Shown: piece after piece, positions 15,128-58,683 of the stretch | Layout of the letters: each line of letters opens with the position of its first letter | Position numbering within the stretch: position 1 is the stretch's first letter | Assembly: GCF_038624605.1 (NCBI RefSeq) | Contig: NZ_CP152020.1 | Coordinates: 3,093,312 to 3,157,311 of the forward strand | From: Psychrobacillus sp. FSL K6-4046 | GTDB taxonomy: Bacteria; Bacillota; Bacilli; Bacillales_A; Planococcaceae | Length of the DNA: 64,000 nucleotides | Reading direction: 5' to 3' | Notes under the pieces: model-generated | What the model saw: the letters and a program-made list of their open reading frames with translations, nothing else | What the model was told of the DNA's origin: nothing | The model's database searches: none | Position numbers and translations under genes: made by a program

Positions 15128-17029
15128 ATGTCAACTATAGAAGAAAAAAACACATTTTTATCTAAAGTAATGCCCCATATAGAACTAGTTGCAGCACTAT
15201 TTTCTGGTCTTTTAATATTAATCGCTTGGCTTATAGGCAATTCAGGTTTTGAAACAGCCTCCATCATCTTCTACCTGTTAGCTTTTGTAATTGGTGGATT
15301 CGCTAAGGCTAAAGAAGGTATTGAAGCAACGATAAAAGAAAAAGAATTAAATGTAGAAATGCTAATGATTCTTGCAGCCATTGGTTCATCCATAATTGGT
15401 TACTGGACTGAAGGTGCGATTCTCATTTTTATATTCGCAGTAAGTGGTGCCTTAGAAACGTATACAATGAATAAAAGCAAAAAAGAAATCTCTTCGTTAA
15501 TGGAACTCCAACCTGAGGAAGCATGGAAGCTTCAAGCAGATGGAAGTACTACACGCGTATCTATAAAGGATTTAATACTCGGTGACAAGCTTGTTGTGAA
15601 ACCAGGAGAAAGAATTCCTGCTGACGGTATCGTCATTAATGGCTTAACATCAGTTGATGAAGCAGCTATAAGTGGTGAGTCTCTCCCCCTTTCCAAGAAG
15701 CCGAACGATACACTTTTTGCTGGTACAGTAAATTTAAGTGGTGCGATTACGATGGAAATGACTAAAACCAATGAAAATTCCTTGTTTCAAAAAATAATCG
15801 ATCTTGTCCAAACGGCTCAAGATGAAAAATCTCCAGCCCAACAATTTATCGAACGATTTGAAGGATCTTATGTAAAAGTAGTTTTAATTGCTGTTGCAGT
15901 GATGATGGTTCTCCCTCATTACTTACTTGACTGGGATTGGACCACTACTTTTTATCGAGCAATGGTTTTATTAGTAGTTGCTTCCCCTTGTGCCCTTGTA
16001 GCATCCATCATGCCAGCTACGCTAGCAGCAATTTCAAACGGTGCAAAAAGCGGCATTTTGTTTAAGGGTGGAATGCACTTAGAAAATATAAGTGAAATGA
16101 AAGCTATAGCTCTAGATAAAACAGGTACCTTAACTCAAGGTAAGCCAGTAGTGACAGACTTCTTTGTACGAGATGACTTAGACCGACTATCAGCACTTAA
16201 ATTGCTTGCTACCATCGAATCACAATCGAATCACCCGTTAGCTCAAGCAATTTCTACATTCGCATTTGCGGAAGGAATCAGCCAGCTACCAATTATTCCT
16301 ATTGAAGACAAACCAGGATTTGGGCTAAAGGCTACTATAAATGACGAAGAAATCTTAATCGGTAAACCTGAGTTTGTAAACAAAGACGAGGCTTTTGCAT
16401 TCCAAGGAGGAGTTGCGGCTGCTCTAGCGGAGGAAGGAAAGACTGTAATATTTATGCGTGATAGTAAAGGAATAGCTGCCGCAGCTGCTTTGAAGGATAC
16501 AGTTCGAGAGGAAGCTAAAGAAGCTATTAAGCTGTTACAATCACTAGGTATTAAAACAGTCATGCTAACTGGGGACAATGAAAAAACGGCAAATGTAATT
16601 GCTAAAGAAGCAGGAATTGACCAGTACATTGCGGAGTGTCTCCCAGAAACTAAAGTACAACACATGAAGGAGCTTTTAGCAGAGCACAAATTTGTTGGAA
16701 TGGTAGGCGATGGGATTAACGATGCGCCTGCCTTGGCAACAGCAACAACTGGATTTGCAATGGGTGAAGGAACAGACGTAGCATTAGAAACTGCCGATGT
16801 CATTCTAATGAAAAATGATTTAAGCAAAATAGCATACGCTGTGAAAATGTCTCGAAAAATGCAACGAATCGTCAAACAGAACATTTTCTTTTCTATCACA
16901 GTAATCGCTCTTCTGATCATCTCCAACTTTTTGCAAGTAGTAGACTTGCCTATGGGTGTCATTGGACATGAAGGAAGCACCATTCTAGTAATCTTAAATG
17001 GATTGCGAATGTTAAACCGCAACATTTAA
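15128..17029 (+). CDS. zosA: heavy-metal P1B-type ATPase, ZosA-like
   Basis: 633-residue membrane pump moving divalent metal (zinc in ZosA). No N-terminal HMA domain or CxxC, as in ZosA. Membrane segments lie at about 20-40, 45-60, 75-110 and 250-300; the SPC motif (Ser286-Cys288 in ASPCALV) is in the transmembrane metal site; the phosphorylation site is Asp330 in DKTGTLTQG; SNHPLA and MVGDGINDAPALA complete the ATP domain; two C-terminal helices follow. AGAGGAGG precedes the ATG. Control by the PerR box upstream fits ZosA, a zinc uptake pump of the peroxide response in B. subtilis. CadA-type efflux is the alternative, but the context argues for ZosA. Confidence 0.9.
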   Translation: MSTIEEKNTFLSKVMPHIELVAALFSGLLILIAWLIGNSGFETASIIFYLLAFVIGGFAKAKEGIEATIKEKELNVEMLMILAAIGSSIIGYWTEGAILIFIFAVSGALETYTMNKSKKEISSLMELQPEEAWKLQADGSTTRVSIKDLILGDKLVVKPGERIPADGIVINGLTSVDEAAISGESLPLSKKPNDTLFAGTVNLSGAITMEMTKTNENSLFQKIIDLVQTAQDEKSPAQQFIERFEGSYVKVVLIAVAVMMVLPHYLLDWDWTTTFYRAMVLLVVASPCALVASIMPATLAAISNGAKSGILFKGGMHLENISEMKAIALDKTGTLTQGKPVVTDFFVRDDLDRLSALKLLATIESQSNHPLAQAISTFAFAEGISQLPIIPIEDKPGFGLKATINDEEILIGKPEFVNKDEAFAFQGGVAAALAEEGKTVIFMRDSKGIAAAAALKDTVREEAKEAIKLLQSLGIKTVMLTGDNEKTANVIAKEAGIDQYIAECLPETKVQHMKELLAEHKFVGMVGDGINDAPALATATTGFAMGEGTDVALETADVILMKNDLSKIAYAVKMSRKMQRIVKQNIFFSITVIALLIISNFLQVVDLPMGVIGHEGSTILVILNGLRMLNRNI

Positions 17030-17040
17030 AGTTGTTCATC

Positions 17041-17077
17041 AAGTATCCGACCTTTCTAGGTTGGATACTTTTTTTAT
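17041..17077 (+). terminator. terminator after zosA
   Basis: AAGTATCCGACCT (17041-17053) / AGGTTGGATACTT (17058-17070) followed by TTTTTTT. Confidence 0.85.
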
Positions 17078-17130: not shown

Positions 17131-18050
17131 CTATGGGGAGAGATTTGGCTTTATGGGCGGCTTATCACCTTTTATGGGACATTTTCCACTAGTTTATGGG
17201 CCACCTTCTACGCTTTATGGGACACTTAGGCCCTTCTTATGGGCGCAACCCTCTTTATGGGCGACTTATCACCTTTTGTGGGACACTCCCCCTAGTTTAT
17301 GGGCCACCTTCTACGCTTTATGGGACACTTAGGCCCTTCTTATGGGCGCAAACCCTCTTTATGGGCGGATTTCTCATTTTTATGGGACACTTCCCGCTAG
17401 TTTATGGGCCACCTTCTACGCTTTATGGGACACTTAGACTCTTCTTATGGGCGAAACTTCTCTTTATGGGCGACTTGCTCCTTTTTATGGGACACTTCCT
17501 GCTAGTTTATGGGTCAATTTCTACACTTTATGGGACACTTATGCTCCTCTTATGGGCGCAAACCCTCTTTATGGACGACTTTTCACCTTTTATGGGACAT
17601 TTTCCACTAGTTTATGGGCCACCTTTTACACTTTATGGGACACTTAGACTCTCCTTATGGGCGCAACCCTCTTTATGGGCGAATTTCTCATTTTTATAGG
17701 ACACTTCCCACTAGTTTATGGGCCACCTTCTACGCTTTATGGGACACTTAGACTCTCCTTATGGGCGCAAACCCTCTTTATGTGCGGATTTCTCATTTTT
17801 ATGGGACACTTCCCGCTAGTTTATGGGCCACCTTCTACGCTTTATGGGACACTTAGGCCCTTCTTATGGGCGCAACCCTCTTTATGGGCGAATTTCTCAT
17901 TTTTATAGGACACTTCCCGCTAGTTTATGGGCCACCTTTTACACTTTATGGGACACTTATGCTCCCCTTATGGGCGCAAACCCTCTTTATGGGCGACTTA
18001 TCACCTTTTATGGGACACTTTCCGCTAACCTTCTACAATTTATAGGACAC
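17131..18050. repeat. tandem array 1: ~8.7 units of 104-105 bp with ~21-bp internal phasing
   Basis: AGTTTATGGG starts at 17191, 17294, 17399, 17504, 17609, 17713, 17818 and 17922: units of 103-105 bp. Inside each unit TATGGG recurs five times; successive positions such as 17298, 17319, 17341, 17360, 17381 and 17403 give spacings of 21, 22, 19, 21 and 22. The unit length is not a constant multiple of 3, so the open frames crossing it (LYGTL/FLWAQ repeats) are not conserved and are judged non-coding. It fills the gap between convergent genes. Confidence 0.9.
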
Positions 18051-18102
18051 TCCCTCCAGTTTAAGCAGGGTCGCCATCTCTGCTTTTATTACCTCAACAA
18101 AG

Positions 18103-18149
18103 AAACACCCATGGATTGGAGTCAAATAGTCTCCAACCGATGGGTGTTT
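18103..18149. terminator. bidirectional terminator between the array and the YihY gene
   Basis: AAACACCCATGGATTGGAG pairs with CTCCAACCGATGGGTGTTT (one mismatch), with a T-run on the plus strand and an A-run on the other side. Confidence 0.8.
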
Positions 18150-18156
18150 TTTTGTT

Positions 18157-19122
18157 TTATTTACGTCGTTTTTTATTATCCATCTGTAACTTTCGTTCTT
18201 GCATAACAGAATTTATCTGCCCACCGACCAACAGGATGATTCCTGAAATGTAGAGCCATAGCATGAGGATAATAATACCCCCGATACTTCCGTAAGTTGC
18301 AGAATAATTACCAAAGTTACTTACATAGTAAGAGAATCCTAGAGATACAATGATCCATCCCAAGGTTGCAAATGCTGCACCCGGGAAAACGCTCTTTAGG
18401 CCTAACTTTATGTTTGGTACTATCCAATATAATGCAGCAAGTACGATAAACATAATAATAGGGCTAAGCGTCCATCTAATATTATTCCACAAATTAATAA
18501 AGTCATCTTGGAAACCAAAATAAGAAAATAAAATTGTACCAATTTGTTCTCCGAAAACTGGTAATACTAGTGCTACAGCAAAAAGTAAAATCATTAATAA
18601 GGTAAATACCACTGATAATGCTCTAACTATAAAAAAGGGTCTCGTTTCCTCTATATCATAAGATCTATTTAAGGATTTGACGATTGCGTTCATCCCATTA
18701 GAAGCAGACCAAATGGTACCAAGAATCCCTATTGATAATAAGCCTCCGTTCCGACTTACTAAGACATCAGAAATCGTTCCCTCAATTAATGTATATACTT
18801 CACCCGGTGCATAGTTTTCTAAAAAGCGGAAGATTTGAGCCTCATCTAGATTTAGATATGGCAATAATGTAACTAAGAAAATTAATAAAGGAAATAGTGA
18901 CAGAAGGAAAAAGTAAGCTAATTGAGCTGCAAGCCCTGTAATATCCGTTTTCTGTATATGCGTTATTAAATGCTTGAAGTAGCCTGACCATGTAGTTAAA
19001 TCATGATTTTCCGTTTTCTTTTTCTCCTTCTTTTTAAAATTTAAAAACTTTAACTTCGTATACCAAGTTGGAGAGGAAGTTTTTTTATTATTCTTATCAT
19101 CTCTATTCATGTGTGAAACCAT
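18157..19122 (-). CDS. YihY/BrkB family inner-membrane protein
   Basis: 321 residues with a basic N-terminus (about 50 residues, KKEKKKTEN) and six hydrophobic segments. AAQLAYFFLLSLFPLLIFLVTLLPYL, the S/GSASNGMNAIVKSLNRSYDIEETRPF region and GGIIILMLWLYISGIILLVGGQIN are the YihY signatures (once misnamed ribonuclease BN). The start at 19122 has GGGAGAGG upstream. It lies 21 bases after a YtxH-like gene and is probably co-transcribed with it. Family function is unsettled; a transport or envelope role is suggested by topology only. Confidence 0.88.
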   Translation of the reverse strand: MVSHMNRDDKNNKKTSSPTWYTKLKFLNFKKKEKKKTENHDLTTWSGYFKHLITHIQKTDITGLAAQLAYFFLLSLFPLLIFLVTLLPYLNLDEAQIFRFLENYAPGEVYTLIEGTISDVLVSRNGGLLSIGILGTIWSASNGMNAIVKSLNRSYDIEETRPFFIVRALSVVFTLLMILLFAVALVLPVFGEQIGTILFSYFGFQDDFINLWNNIRWTLSPIIMFIVLAALYWIVPNIKLGLKSVFPGAAFATLGWIIVSLGFSYYVSNFGNYSATYGSIGGIIILMLWLYISGIILLVGGQINSVMQERKLQMDNKKRRK

Positions 19123-27629: not shown

Positions 27630-27746
27630 GTACTAAAATACCTGTAGTTGCCTACTAATTCAAGCCGCTATGGGCTTATTACATTATTACTTTATATGTA
27701 GGGGTTGTGGGGGACACTTCTTTACGTTACGTGTGGTTTCCATGAT

Positions 27747-28400
27747 TAGGCGACAATTTCTACTTTTTAGGTATCACTTTTCTACGCTTTAGGTGCGCTT
27801 TTACCTAGTTTAGGTAGCACTTCTTTACTTTTACGTGCGGTTCCCCTATGTAGGCGACAATTTCTACTTTTTAGGTATCACTCTTCTATGCTTTAGGTGC
27901 GCTTATACTTCGTTTAGGTGGCACTTCTTTACTTTTACGTGCGGTTCCCCTAATTAGGTGACAATTTCTACTTTTTAGGTATCACTTCTCCACGCTTTAG
28001 GTGCGCTTTTACATAGTTTAGGTAGCACTTCTTTAATGTTTACGTGCGGTCCCCCTGTTTAGGTGAAAATTTCTACTGTTTAGGTGACAATTTCTATTTT
28101 TTAGGTATCACTCTTCTATGCTTTAGGTGCGCTTTTGCATAGTTTAGGTAGCACTTCTTTAATGTTTACGTGCAGTCCCCCTGTTTAGGTGACAATTTCT
28201 ACTTTTTAGGTATCACTCTTCTATGCTTTAGGTGCGCTTTTGCCTAGTTTAGGTGACACTTCTTTAATGTTTACGTGCGGTTTTCCTATTTAGGTGAAAA
28301 TTTCTACTTTTTAGGTATCACTCTTCTACGCTCTAGGTGCGCTTTTGCTCCGATTAGGTGTCGCTTTCTCTACTTTTACGTGCGGATACCCCTGATTAAG
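27747..28400. repeat. tandem array 2: ~6 units of 104-105 bp with ~21-bp internal phasing
   Basis: The landmark TTCTA-TTTTTAGG occurs at 27758, 27862, 27966, 28092, 28197 and 28302 (steps 104, 104, 126, 105, 105; the 126 step holds one extra ~22-bp sub-unit). Within a unit TAGG/TACG words fall at 27768, 27790, 27811, 27832, 27851 and 27872: spacings 22, 21, 21, 19, 21. Sub-units read TTTAGGTATCAC.., TTTAGGTGCGCT.., TTTAGGTAGCAC.., TTTACGTGCGG.., TTAGGTGACAAT... Non-coding. Confidence 0.9.
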
Positions 28401-28442
28401 TGTCTCGTGTCTACCTGTACCAGGCAATTATCCGTTATACGT

Positions 28443-28745
28443 GCCTCCTCGCATTTTCCCATTTGTCTGTCGGGGCAGAACAGGCGCCTCCGCTTTTCTT
28501 GATGTCTAGCTCCTGCGCCTTGCCCCTCGGGGTCAAATGGGAAAATACTCCAGTGGCTGAGGAGTTGCCTCCTCGCATTTTCCCATTTGTCTGTCGGGGC
28601 AGAACAGGCGCCTCCGCTTTTCTTGATGTCTAGCTCCTGCGCCTTGCCCCTCGGGGTCAAATGGGAAAATACTCCAGTGGCTGAGGAGTTGCCTCCTCGC
28701 ATTTTCCCATTTGCCTGTCAGGGCAGAACAGGCGCCTCCGCTTTT
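28443..28745. repeat. 124-bp direct tandem repeat, 2.4 copies
   Basis: GCCTCCTCGC starts at 28443, 28567 and 28691, an exact 124-bp period; the first two units are essentially identical, the third stops after about 55 bases. Each full unit contains an inverted pair TTTTCCCATTTG / CAAATGGGAAAA enclosing GC-rich sequence (GGGGCAGAACAGGCGCCTCC, GCCTTGCCCCTCGGGG). No supported gene; the rest of 28400-28958 is AT-rich promoter DNA of the mreB-type gene. Confidence 0.9.
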
Positions 28746-28958
28746 CTTTATTATTTCTTATTTTTTTCATTTCATTTTAGATAAGTTTGTATTACAAAAC
28801 GAATACAAAATAGGTTTTTGTCATTATTTTTTTTCCTATAAATGCCCCTTACTACCCACAAAGTATTGAAACATACGTAAAATTCCATTATGTTACAAAT
28901 GGCAATTGTGCTATTTTCCATTATAATAACGTAGAGCAAGTGAAATGGAGGAAGACAT

Positions 28959-35418: not shown

Positions 35419-35496
35419 TGTAATCCCCTTTTTTGACCACAAAAAAACGCCGAAGGGACAGAGCCAGACATCGCGCGATTGCCAGTTTCCATCCAC

Positions 35497-35568
35497 ATCC
35501 CTACGCAAGTATGAACTTACAGGTTCTAAGGGTACTATCTCAGCCGCTTTGTAGCGACGCCCCTTGTG
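35497..35568 (-). promoter_or_regulatory. TPP (THI-box) riboswitch controlling thiT
   Basis: Read on the minus strand: GGGGCGTC...GCGGCTGAGATAGTACCC, then TTAGAACCTG, then GTTCATAC and GCGTAGGGA. These are the ordered conserved blocks of the thi-box: CTGAGA, ACCC, GAACCTG and the GCGTAGGGA closing strand. A GC-rich stretch ending in TTTTTTT (35446-35440) follows before the ATG, suggesting transcription attenuation, though I could not fix the exact terminator pairing. High TPP should lower thiT expression. Confidence 0.92.
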
Positions 35569-35674
35569 GTTTCGAATTTATTTTATTTGAGTTCATTGTA
35601 GCCGATAGGTGTTTAGAATGCAACCCCGATTGGTATTATATAATAATACAAATTTATTATTAGGGGTGTAATAA

Positions 35675-49218: not shown

Positions 49219-49495
49219 GAAAAACAAAAAAGCCCTTCGTCCCCTACATTAATGTAAGGGGCGAAGAGCTAAAATAACTCACGCGGTACCACCCAAATTT
49301 ACTGCAAACATACTGCAGCCTCTTAAGTCACATGCTTAACGCGCATTCACGGATGAGCCTACTGACTTCAGCCCACCGATTCAAGAGTGCTACCTCACAT
49401 ACGAAACCACTGATTTGCACCAACCATCAGCTCTCTGTAGATTTACAAAATGTAAAGCTTATCTCTGTCAAAATCGTTTATCACTTATTGAATTA
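49219..49495 (-). promoter_or_regulatory. T-box riboswitch upstream of the aminotransferase-serA operon, probably tRNA-Ser
   Basis: Minus-strand landmarks in order: AGAGAG followed by CTGATGGTTGGTGCAAATCAG (AG bulge and distal loop of stem I), candidate specifier loop GAAGTCA, T-box core GGGTGGTACCGCG (49294-49282), and terminator AGCTCTTCGCCCCTTAC / ATGTAGGGGACGAAGGGCT with TTTTTTG (49270-49219). With the usual GAA-N-codon spacing the specifier is UCA (49365-49363), serine, in line with the genes. A second GAA upstream (GAATCGG) gives an alternative reading. Uncharged tRNA should favour the antiterminator. Confidence 0.92.
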
Positions 49496-52445: not shown

Positions 52446-52485
52446 GCCAGTGTTTCTGATACAGATTTTCCTCGTTCTAGAAAAA

Positions 52486-52792
52486 TTTACTACAATGACC
52501 CCATAATTTACTACAATCCAGCTTTACTTTACGACAATCAACCCGTAGATTACTACAATCTCTCAGCAACTCTCTCGTTGTAGAAAAATTTACGACAATG
52601 ACCCCATAATTTACTACAATCCAGCCTTACTTTACGACAATCAACCCGTAGATTACTACACTCATTCAGCAGCTCTCTCGTTCTAGAAAATTTTACGACA
52701 ATGACCCCATAATTTACTACAATCCAGCCTTACTTTACGACAATCAACCCGTAGATTACTACAATCCACAAGTCGCTCTCTCTTTCTAGCGA
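52486..52792. repeat. tandem array 3: three 103-bp units with exact 21-bp phasing
   Basis: TTTAC/ATTAC words start at 52486, 52507, 52528, 52549, then 52589, 52610, 52631, 52652, then 52692, 52713, 52734, 52755: spacing 21, 21, 21, 40 in each unit. Sub-units: TTTACTACAATGACCCCATAA, TTTACTACAATCCAGCCTTAC, TTTACGACAATCAACCCGTA, each with an 11-bp constant half and a 10-bp variable half. Non-coding, between convergent genes. Confidence 0.92.
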
Positions 52793-54329: not shown

Positions 54330-54622
54330 TGTTAACAATTTAGGTAGAACATAAAAAAGAAATTTGGCATTCTACAAACGTGTTTTTGAACATACTTATT
54401 CACACTGGAGCGATTATAGGGTCGCAAGGACGTAAAAGAAGGTAGGGTTTACGTTGCTTAGGTTAGAAGACAACCAGTGGAACAATTTACCGCGGCATTG
54501 AAAGCTTAAACCTTTCATGGAAATTATTCACCGAACATTCGGGATGAAATTTAAAAATTCAAAGATTATGTTTTACCTCATACAAATCAAGGGCTGGTCT
54601 CCAATGGAGATTAGCCCTTGTC
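54330..54622 (+). ncRNA. candidate structured non-coding RNA of ~290 nt, unidentified
   Basis: Open stretch without a credible ORF between divergent minus-strand genes. Pairings: CACTGG (54403-54408) / CCAGTG (54474-54479) enclosing ACGTAAA (54430-54436) / TTTACGT (54448-54454); GAAAG (54500-54504) / CTTTC (54512-54516); CCGA-ACAT-TCGG (54531-54542); end hairpin CAAGGGCTGGTCTCC (54588-54602) / GGAGATTAGCCCTTG (54606-54620) with two weak pairs. GC-rich single-strand blocks (GGGTCGCAAGG, TTACCGCGG) resemble conserved RNA cores. I could not match it to a known riboswitch, 6S, SRP or tmRNA. Confidence 0.5.
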
Positions 54623-58509: not shown

Positions 58510-58524
58510 TCATTTAACCATGCC

Positions 58525-58593
58525 ACTCATAGTCGACTTCTTTACGGTAAGTCGGTAGAAACTTGCAGGCCATATCCCTGCTATTATACGAGT
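58525..58593 (-). promoter_or_regulatory. guanine-class purine riboswitch
   Basis: Minus strand: P1 ACTCGTA...TATGAGT, J1/2 ATATGG, P2 GCAGG/CCTGC region, J2/3 GTTTCTACC, P3 with its loop TACCGTAA, then GACTATGAGT. The specificity base corresponding to C74 of the B. subtilis xpt aptamer is C (position 58532), which predicts guanine/hypoxanthine rather than adenine. It controls xpt-pbuX by attenuation. Confidence 0.95.
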
Positions 58594-58683
58594 ATACGAA
58601 ATTTGATTGTTCTCATTATAGCACGGTAAAATTCTTTTACAATAATGAGTTAAAAAGTTCAATCATTCTTAAAATTCTGTTCA

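Follow-up and report, generated by a model that had tools for sequence, protein, structure and literature searches.

What maintains a long tandem array of short, regularly stepped words between two genes of a Psychrobacillus chromosome (3,885,841 bp), and is this array alone? A sequence-only reading of the window, by which we mean the whole 64,000-nucleotide stretch of DNA that was analyzed, had offered two answers: a binding platform for a nucleoid or regulatory protein, with a 21-bp step placing each word on the same DNA face, or the product of a shared amplification mechanism. It also proposed an undescribed family of phased intergenic arrays. The locus is made up as follows (window coordinates, strand, feature).

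15128..17029, + strand: gene for a P-type (E1-E2) ATPase (PF00122, PF00702), the upstream neighbor, with its 3' end toward array 1
17041..17077, + strand: intrinsic-terminator-like hairpin with a T run in the gap between the ATPase gene and array 1, called from the sequence and flagged by the script
17131..18060, + strand: array 1, class T (TTTAYGGG), 43 to 44 words in about 8.4 five-word units of 104/105 bp
17255..17358, + strand: one five-word unit of array 1, with steps of 21, 21, 21, 22, and 19
18103..18155, no strand assigned: hairpin with a T run in the gap between array 1 and its convergent neighbor, seen by eye and unflagged by the script
18157..19122, - strand: gene for a BrkB-family membrane protein (PF03631), the downstream convergent neighbor

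The nearest named relatives of the BrkB gene are in Psychrobacillus sp. BL-248-WT-3 (99%) and P. faecigallinarum (89%). TRF places array 1 at 17149-18027 with a period of 105, 8.4 copies, and an 87% match, besides periods of 209 and 21. Cutting at the TTATGGG-like word yields 44 segments from 17131, with steps mostly of 21, 22, 21, 22, and 18/19 bp, and a chain finder counts 43 words. These three approaches confirm the tandem units of about 104/105 bp with five words each that had been described. The array extends to about 18060, a little beyond the end originally given, and its last two units are decayed. The alternation of 104 and 105 bp is an effect of the 18/19-bp fifth step, which brings the sum back to about ten helical turns. 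The proposed same-face phase is thus not a strict 21-bp rule in this array, given the steps of 22 and 18/19 bp.

Two other arrays in the window had been said to have the same two-level metric. Both are real according to TRF and word steps.

27715..28393, + strand: array 2, class G (TTTAGGTG), with a five-word unit mostly of 104-105 bp, in the spacer between an M29 peptidase gene and an MreB/Mbl gene
52471..52775, + strand: array 3, class C (TTTACKACAAT), three 103-bp units with steps of 21, 21, 21, and 40, in the spacer between a DinB-family and an AHSA1-family gene; its core, with a 103-bp period, spans 52471-52766

A 124-bp repeat (28442-28748; 2.5 copies, 98% match) follows array 2 immediately, on the upstream side of the MreB/Mbl gene. 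A similar-looking 125-bp repeat adjoins a class C array at 845 kb (L105), and repeats of 125-126 bp also occur in Rossellomorea loci L091 and L092.

Several familiar kinds of repeat were considered for these arrays. A coding tandem repeat was rejected, since units of 103-106 bp break the reading frame and Pfam found no match in either of the two array ORFs tested; together with an array strand that is untied to transcription (see below), this supports the earlier view of array 1 as noncoding. Rfam gave four matches within the window (a T-box leader, a purine riboswitch, a TPP riboswitch, and the BsrC sRNA, at 49254-49480, 58510-58611, 35481-35574, and 54380-54467, respectively) and none inside its arrays, and RNA folding of four array sequences was no better than that of shuffles (z = +0.50, -0.53, -0.37, and -0.85). 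CRISPR loci have identical repeats and unique, longer spacers; here the unit is 21 bp and the filler 7-13 bp, and Pfam detected no cas genes among the direct neighbors of the three window arrays. A plasmid or phage origin of array 1 was also rejected, as blastn gave no match in plasmids or phages.

The family extends far beyond the window. The host genome (G000) holds at least 51 arrays in 47 spacers, totaling 13.5 kb or 0.35% of the genome; genes were taken as ORF calls of at least 100 aa rather than from annotation, and the census is a lower bound: the 51 leave out word TTTATCACCGTTC near 1,693 kb, what may be a relative of it at 1,586 kb, and short class C arrays such as that at 822 kb. DNA searches with the three window arrays returned 31, 8, and 30 host-genome matches, the 31 for the array 1 unit being above chance, and a word scan of the regions around matches resolved 33 arrays of classes T, G, and C. 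There are at least five word classes: TTTAYGGG (T), TTTAGGTG (G), TTTACKACAAT (C), AACCGACCGATTAT (A), and GCAAGGTTC (E). Class A was first noticed because of an insertion sequence (IS) in one of its 17 arrays, the other 16 being independent of that insertion; all of its steps are 21 bp except one of 20, and its pattern matches the genome 71 times, the reversed control not once. Viral contigs gave no match to the exact class A pattern. Class E emerged from a word-agnostic scan of a systematic 800-kb genome sample. In that scan, self-similarity of at least 38/63 was found in 7 of 283 spacers (20% genome sample), compared with 7 of 1,415 shuffles. Lag 21 accounted for four of the seven spacers (three arrays and one stretch of AT-rich low-complexity DNA), whereas the shuffle lags were scattered; 21-bp phasing is thus in excess over shuffles in the genome sample (4/283 spacers).

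The step metric is largely common to the classes. Class C steps are 21 bp in 148 of 185 cases and 40 bp in 30, giving the 103-bp unit, and those of classes T and G are mostly 21, 22, and 19 bp, giving a unit of 104-106 bp in most arrays. One T/G array (1136 kb) repeats at 169 bp, and some short arrays lack a higher unit. A five-step unit of 103-106 bp is common to most arrays of the three classes, in which five-word units have been multiplied as blocks. Arrays 1 and 2 had been taken as unrelated at first sight, a view we reject: classes T and G follow a common order of 21-22-21-22-19 or a variant of it, and some arrays are part T and part G. The five-word unit is therefore probably ancestral to these two classes. 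In another genus (G036), with the word TTTACTTGCAA, the sum of four steps of 21 and one of 19 recurs.

Within the arrays, the words are under constraint while the filler drifts. Among 133 same-phase, same-length pairs of class C copies from within arrays, the word (positions 1-11) varies in 0-3% of pairs, except at position 6, where G or T occurs and 20% of pairs differ. The corresponding figure for the filler is 6-26% at positions 12-21. Within the long step, positions 22-40 range from 0 to 56% (16 pairs), so there are conserved filler letters there too. Word positions differ in 0-10% and filler in 9-24% in class T, and the contrast is weaker in class G (0-15% and 4-29%). Both the limit set on mismatches in word finding and the removal of copy pairs more than 35% different (misphased) lower the apparent word variation in these figures, but in our judgment, made without computation, such biases cannot create the gap between word and filler in class C. 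In 88 class A units, with words taken with up to 3 mismatches, ACCGACCGATT carries 1.6-2.0 bits per position, three edge letters carry 0.75-1.2, and the filler carries 0.01-0.3. Other families are similar; for example, TTTACTCCCGTTCA of G338 has 14 conserved and 7 freer positions, its TTTA being fixed by the search.

Comparison of two strains shows how the arrays change. Among seven class A arrays, three are identical or nearly so and two differ by whole 21-bp units. The two strains have different unit numbers at 695 kb, where letters have changed in the word and in the filler. At 1131 kb, 15 of 40 filler letters have changed compared with 1 of 65 word letters (hand count on the alignment). 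The latter array raised the suspicion of hypermutating filler, which we rejected in view of the six other class A arrays; the 1131-kb array lies among diverged flanks. Exact words in the class C array at 3309 kb number 10 in one strain and 8 in the second. Copy number between strains differs by whole 21-bp units, and copy-number variation of this kind is also seen in minisatellites (VNTRs). The idea of a shared amplification product is thereby borne out in part, since five-word units have been multiplied and copies come and go as whole 21-bp units.

Word classes differ in distribution, and class C positions outlast the species boundary. Among 19 genomes of the genus, class T occurs in only two, both of this species; class C occurs outside the species in G002 (23 matches) and G014 (one match); and class A has no more than a single match per genome in the remaining 17. 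In the sister species G002, flanking alignment places 8 of 13 class C match regions in the same spacers as the class C arrays of the host, namely, those at 2436, 751, 212, 138, 3351, 1053, 3309, and 822 kb, the last of which is short. The flanks of two further regions (L266 and L270) align where no host array is listed, and three others could not be placed. Three of the eight shared spacers were aligned: the word is identical in all of them, and two show the 103-bp unit clearly; the remaining array is short in the host. The aligned flanks are 68-91% identical. At the array 1 locus, P. faecigallinarum has an array with different words, TTAGGAGACACTT alternating with TTAGGGGCGCTTT. Among ten more distant Psychrobacillus loci, TRF found no array in nine, and the tenth (L068) is cut by a contig end; one TRF-negative locus (L063) shows weak 21-22-bp words by eye.

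Beyond the genus, we searched 261 genomes of the order with a pattern of four TTTA words, which is anchored on TTTA and one fixed 21-bp step and so misses other words and 20-bp arrays. It matched in 233 genomes, but controls match too, and only the excess counts. The excess was strong (forward plus reverse matches/reversed control) in G000 (58/4), G002 (84/9), G036 (60/7), G088 (90/5), G182 (167/2), and G069 (492/63). Many genomes of the same family or order showed no excess of this pattern over the reversed control, and the array system is dispensable on this account. Fourteen of 18 order-level loci, chosen for a pattern match, passed the five-word test. Among 250 genomes drawn from the class, a minority have such matches, which extend to further families and involve other words. 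All 20 of the class-level loci fetched hold arrays by the chain test, which allowed steps of 18-23 (21 in 105 and 20 in 16 of 127), the loci having been chosen for a pattern match and chains with a word identity below 0.6 having been dropped. An ORF of at least 100 aa covers the array in 4 of these 20 loci. In Rossellomorea and Bacillus, loci with 20-21-bp arrays were also seen, AGTCGATAATA being one of their words. The predicted family of phased intergenic arrays therefore exists, with at least 51 members in one genome and with other words in other genera and families. Side observations in relatives include 82-bp units (about 4 x 20.5) with CGCCCGAG words in P. psychrodurans (L066 13618-13934), an array of AAAGCAACCAATT words with a 21-bp period in Bacillus sp. 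FJAT-22090 (L065 12988-13077), and 52-bp repeats with GAGACC/CTCTAG words in Rossellomorea/Bacillus (L091 13467-14076 and L094 6625-6824), L091 also having a period of 105 bp.

The arrays lie at gene ends, often between convergent genes. Of 46 array spacers, 23 are convergent (22 without one spurious ORF at 3121 kb), compared with 66 of 362 in a genome sample that itself contains a few array spacers (Fisher p = 2.8e-5, using 22/46). In other genomes, 9 of 17 spacers are convergent among order-level loci (hand count), as are 7 of 18, compared with 13 of 63, among class-level loci. In spacers between tandem genes, antisense orientation of the words (14 cases) and sense orientation (7 cases) both occur; array strand is thus untied to transcription. 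Of the 20 convergent cases tested, 17 have a terminator-like site separating the array from a neighboring gene, and 5 of them have one on both sides. An enrichment of terminators was rejected, as 43 of 63 convergent spacers without a listed array have them as well (both sides in 19). The TTTA of the word is on the lagging strand in 11 of 12 class T and 3 of 4 class G arrays, arrays split by an IS being counted twice, but the same count gives 10 of 16 for class C and 10 of 17 for class A. We therefore discarded a strict replication orientation; the AT skew of the genome could alone explain the bias of classes T and G.

Mobile elements have also entered these arrays. A 1,496-bp element encoding a Transposase_mut protein, which we take to belong to the IS256 family, is present in six copies that encode an identical protein and are each flanked by an 8-bp target duplication (G000:C1:749950-751460 and 925, 2475, 2875, 3411, and 249 kb; loci L037, L022, L024, L025, L144, and L143). 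Four copies are in class T or C arrays, a fifth is in a class A array, and the sixth is in an ORF. The probability of at least five of six insertions falling in 0.35% of the genome is 3e-12; treating the five as draws from spacers only gives 5e-9. The target duplications fall at varying places in the array unit, and the element therefore does not seem to read the array word. Sister strain G011 lacks the insertion at 2475 kb. Draft contigs C14, C26, C28, C34, and C49 of that strain end inside or just past arrays, so draft assemblies may underreport arrays. Three of five checked G011 contigs that end at arrays carry an end of the IS256-family element; for two of these, inside array 1 (L246 tail, window position ~17344) and at a 574-kb array, G000 has no copy. 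An IS3-like copy also lies inside an array. Separately, beside a class C array (G000:C1:~3309700-3311500; L026), a 421-aa ORF is absent from G011, and its flanks read as group II intron-like.

We consider it about an even chance (probability roughly 0.5) that the arrays are same-face DNA-binding platforms at gene ends, read by one or more putative lineage-specific proteins. We favor the platform proposed for array 1 because words stay conserved as the filler diverges; the phase, its recurrence with other words elsewhere, the retention of spacers, word, and 103-bp unit in a sister species, the convergent location, and the independence of strand from transcription also speak for it. As a prediction from sequence, it would work as follows. 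A nonpalindromic word of about 8-14 bp, in one orientation and at two-turn steps (21 bp, or 22 and 19 bp compensating each other), would turn its copies roughly toward one side of the helix, with weakly constrained filler between them. Each word class would be read by a putative sequence-specific DNA-binding protein, which may coat the array cooperatively and so build a nucleoprotein block, straight or wrapped, at the ends of genes and in many cases between convergent ones. Such a block could serve as a topological or nucleoid anchor or as a roadblock to read-through, and the array units would gain and lose copies by recombination or slippage. Against the platform counts the number of word classes per genome, which would need several readers or one unusually plastic one. 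Further points against it are the weaker contrast in class G, the conserved filler letters in the long class C step, the word changes at 695 kb, the many genomes of the family at control level, the nine more distant Psychrobacillus loci where TRF found no array, and the ordinary frequency of terminator-like sites.

The strongest rival takes the arrays as bendable DNA that gyrase, HU, or some other architectural protein would wrap with little regard for sequence; the word would then matter mainly through AT/GC alternation every half unit. In line with this, the 10.5-bp power of AA/AT/TA/TT exceeds position-permuted controls in all 14 arrays tested of the 51 in the host genome (0-0.075 of controls reach the observed power), and this fraction is at most 0.05 for 14 of another 27 arrays, namely, the host's class E and 26 from other genomes, although the permutation control is biased low, and thus too lenient, where steps are not exactly 21 bp. 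Convergent spacers would also suit sites of positive supercoiling, and the IS insertions have no fixed position in the unit. Yet the 10.5-bp excess is common rather than universal, being absent from some arrays with exact 21-bp steps (G022, G043, and class E), and bending propensity was rejected as a complete explanation. Specific bases, GGG and CGACCG among them, are, moreover, conserved beyond what bending needs, and we regard this rival as unlikely. Somewhat less probable still are selfish or neutral minisatellites, spread by slippage and recombination bias, with recombination between arrays keeping the words alike. Whole-unit copy-number changes, local homogenization of five-word units, and the restriction of classes T and A to this species within the genus sample would all be expected of them. 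The filler, however, is not homogenized across arrays, so conversion tracts would need to end at word borders, and a sister species with aligned flanks that are 68-91% identical retains the positions, the word, and the 103-bp metric.

Gene-end location would also agree with transcribed elements whose words act in RNA, for example, as protein or sRNA sites in 3' ends. The mixed strand relative to transcription, folds at the level of shuffles, and the lack of an Rfam match in the window arrays make this improbable. We give the least credence to the idea that arrays are maintained because they receive IS256-family insertions or divert them from genes. That arrays of three different word classes hold five of the six identical copies fits such a role, as do the element ends at three of five G011 contigs and the IS3-like copy, but the IS copies disrupt the arrays and look recent (that at 2475 kb is missing from G011), and conservation of the word is left unexplained.

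Among known systems, plasmid iterons and phased operators are nonpalindromic direct repeats at about two helical turns that hold a DNA-binding protein on one face. The arrays resemble them in being direct repeats at this spacing. They differ in that dozens of chromosomal arrays occur genome-wide, with several word classes per genome, and the 51 arrays are scattered over the chromosome, whose origin lies near position 0 by sampled GC skew, rather than gathered at an origin. Alpha-satellite DNA of eukaryotic centromeres has a 171-bp monomer with a conserved protein-binding box; its higher-order repeats share with the arrays the multiplication of diverged monomers as a larger unit. DNA uptake sequence dialects are dispersed single words or inverted pairs. 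Like the array words, they are short, asymmetric, located near gene ends, and different between related species, but here the words form long direct arrays. Proteins that bind REP/BIME elements include gyrase and IHF, and gyrase sites have been proposed for such elements near gene ends. The array words are nonpalindromic, and the four folds at shuffle level give no sign of the REP/BIME stem-loop. In the part of the literature consulted, REP elements are targets of particular IS elements (PMC1525189), and the arrays resemble them in having many intergenic copies near gene ends that are IS targets. As far as the excerpt of PMC2817692 goes, REP/BIME elements bind several proteins, and REPs are palindromic with alternating orientation in BIMEs, whereas the arrays are direct repeats of nonpalindromic words in one orientation, phased at 21 bp and without a stem-loop. 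The TAACTGA heptamers resemble the arrays in their short conserved word, tandem intergenic sets, and patchy distribution; they are direct repeats of one word, mostly just upstream of start codons in their main host, and the excerpt of PMC4679880 states no 21-bp phase. Full-text literature searches, with subscription papers mostly outside their scope, gave no description of these arrays among the matches listed, where PMC1525189 and PMC4679880 come nearest, and to that extent the family may be called undescribed.

More tentatively, the arrays could form a chromosomal address system in a number of Bacilli. Array families would then stand side by side, each with its own putative reader, and mark nucleoid or topological boundaries; arrays would stay at the same gene ends while their words change between species and genera, and the phase (two turns, often in ten-turn blocks) would be kept where the letters are not. 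We hold these statements jointly, as a possibility rather than as the expected outcome. If the binding-platform reading or its extension is true, a number of Firmicutes would carry dozens of selectively constrained and apparently undescribed DNA elements at gene ends, which would offer a handle on the organization of DNA between convergent genes and mark hot spots of IS256-type insertion. Words that change while the phase does not would, moreover, provide a natural experiment on the evolution of DNA-binding specificity.
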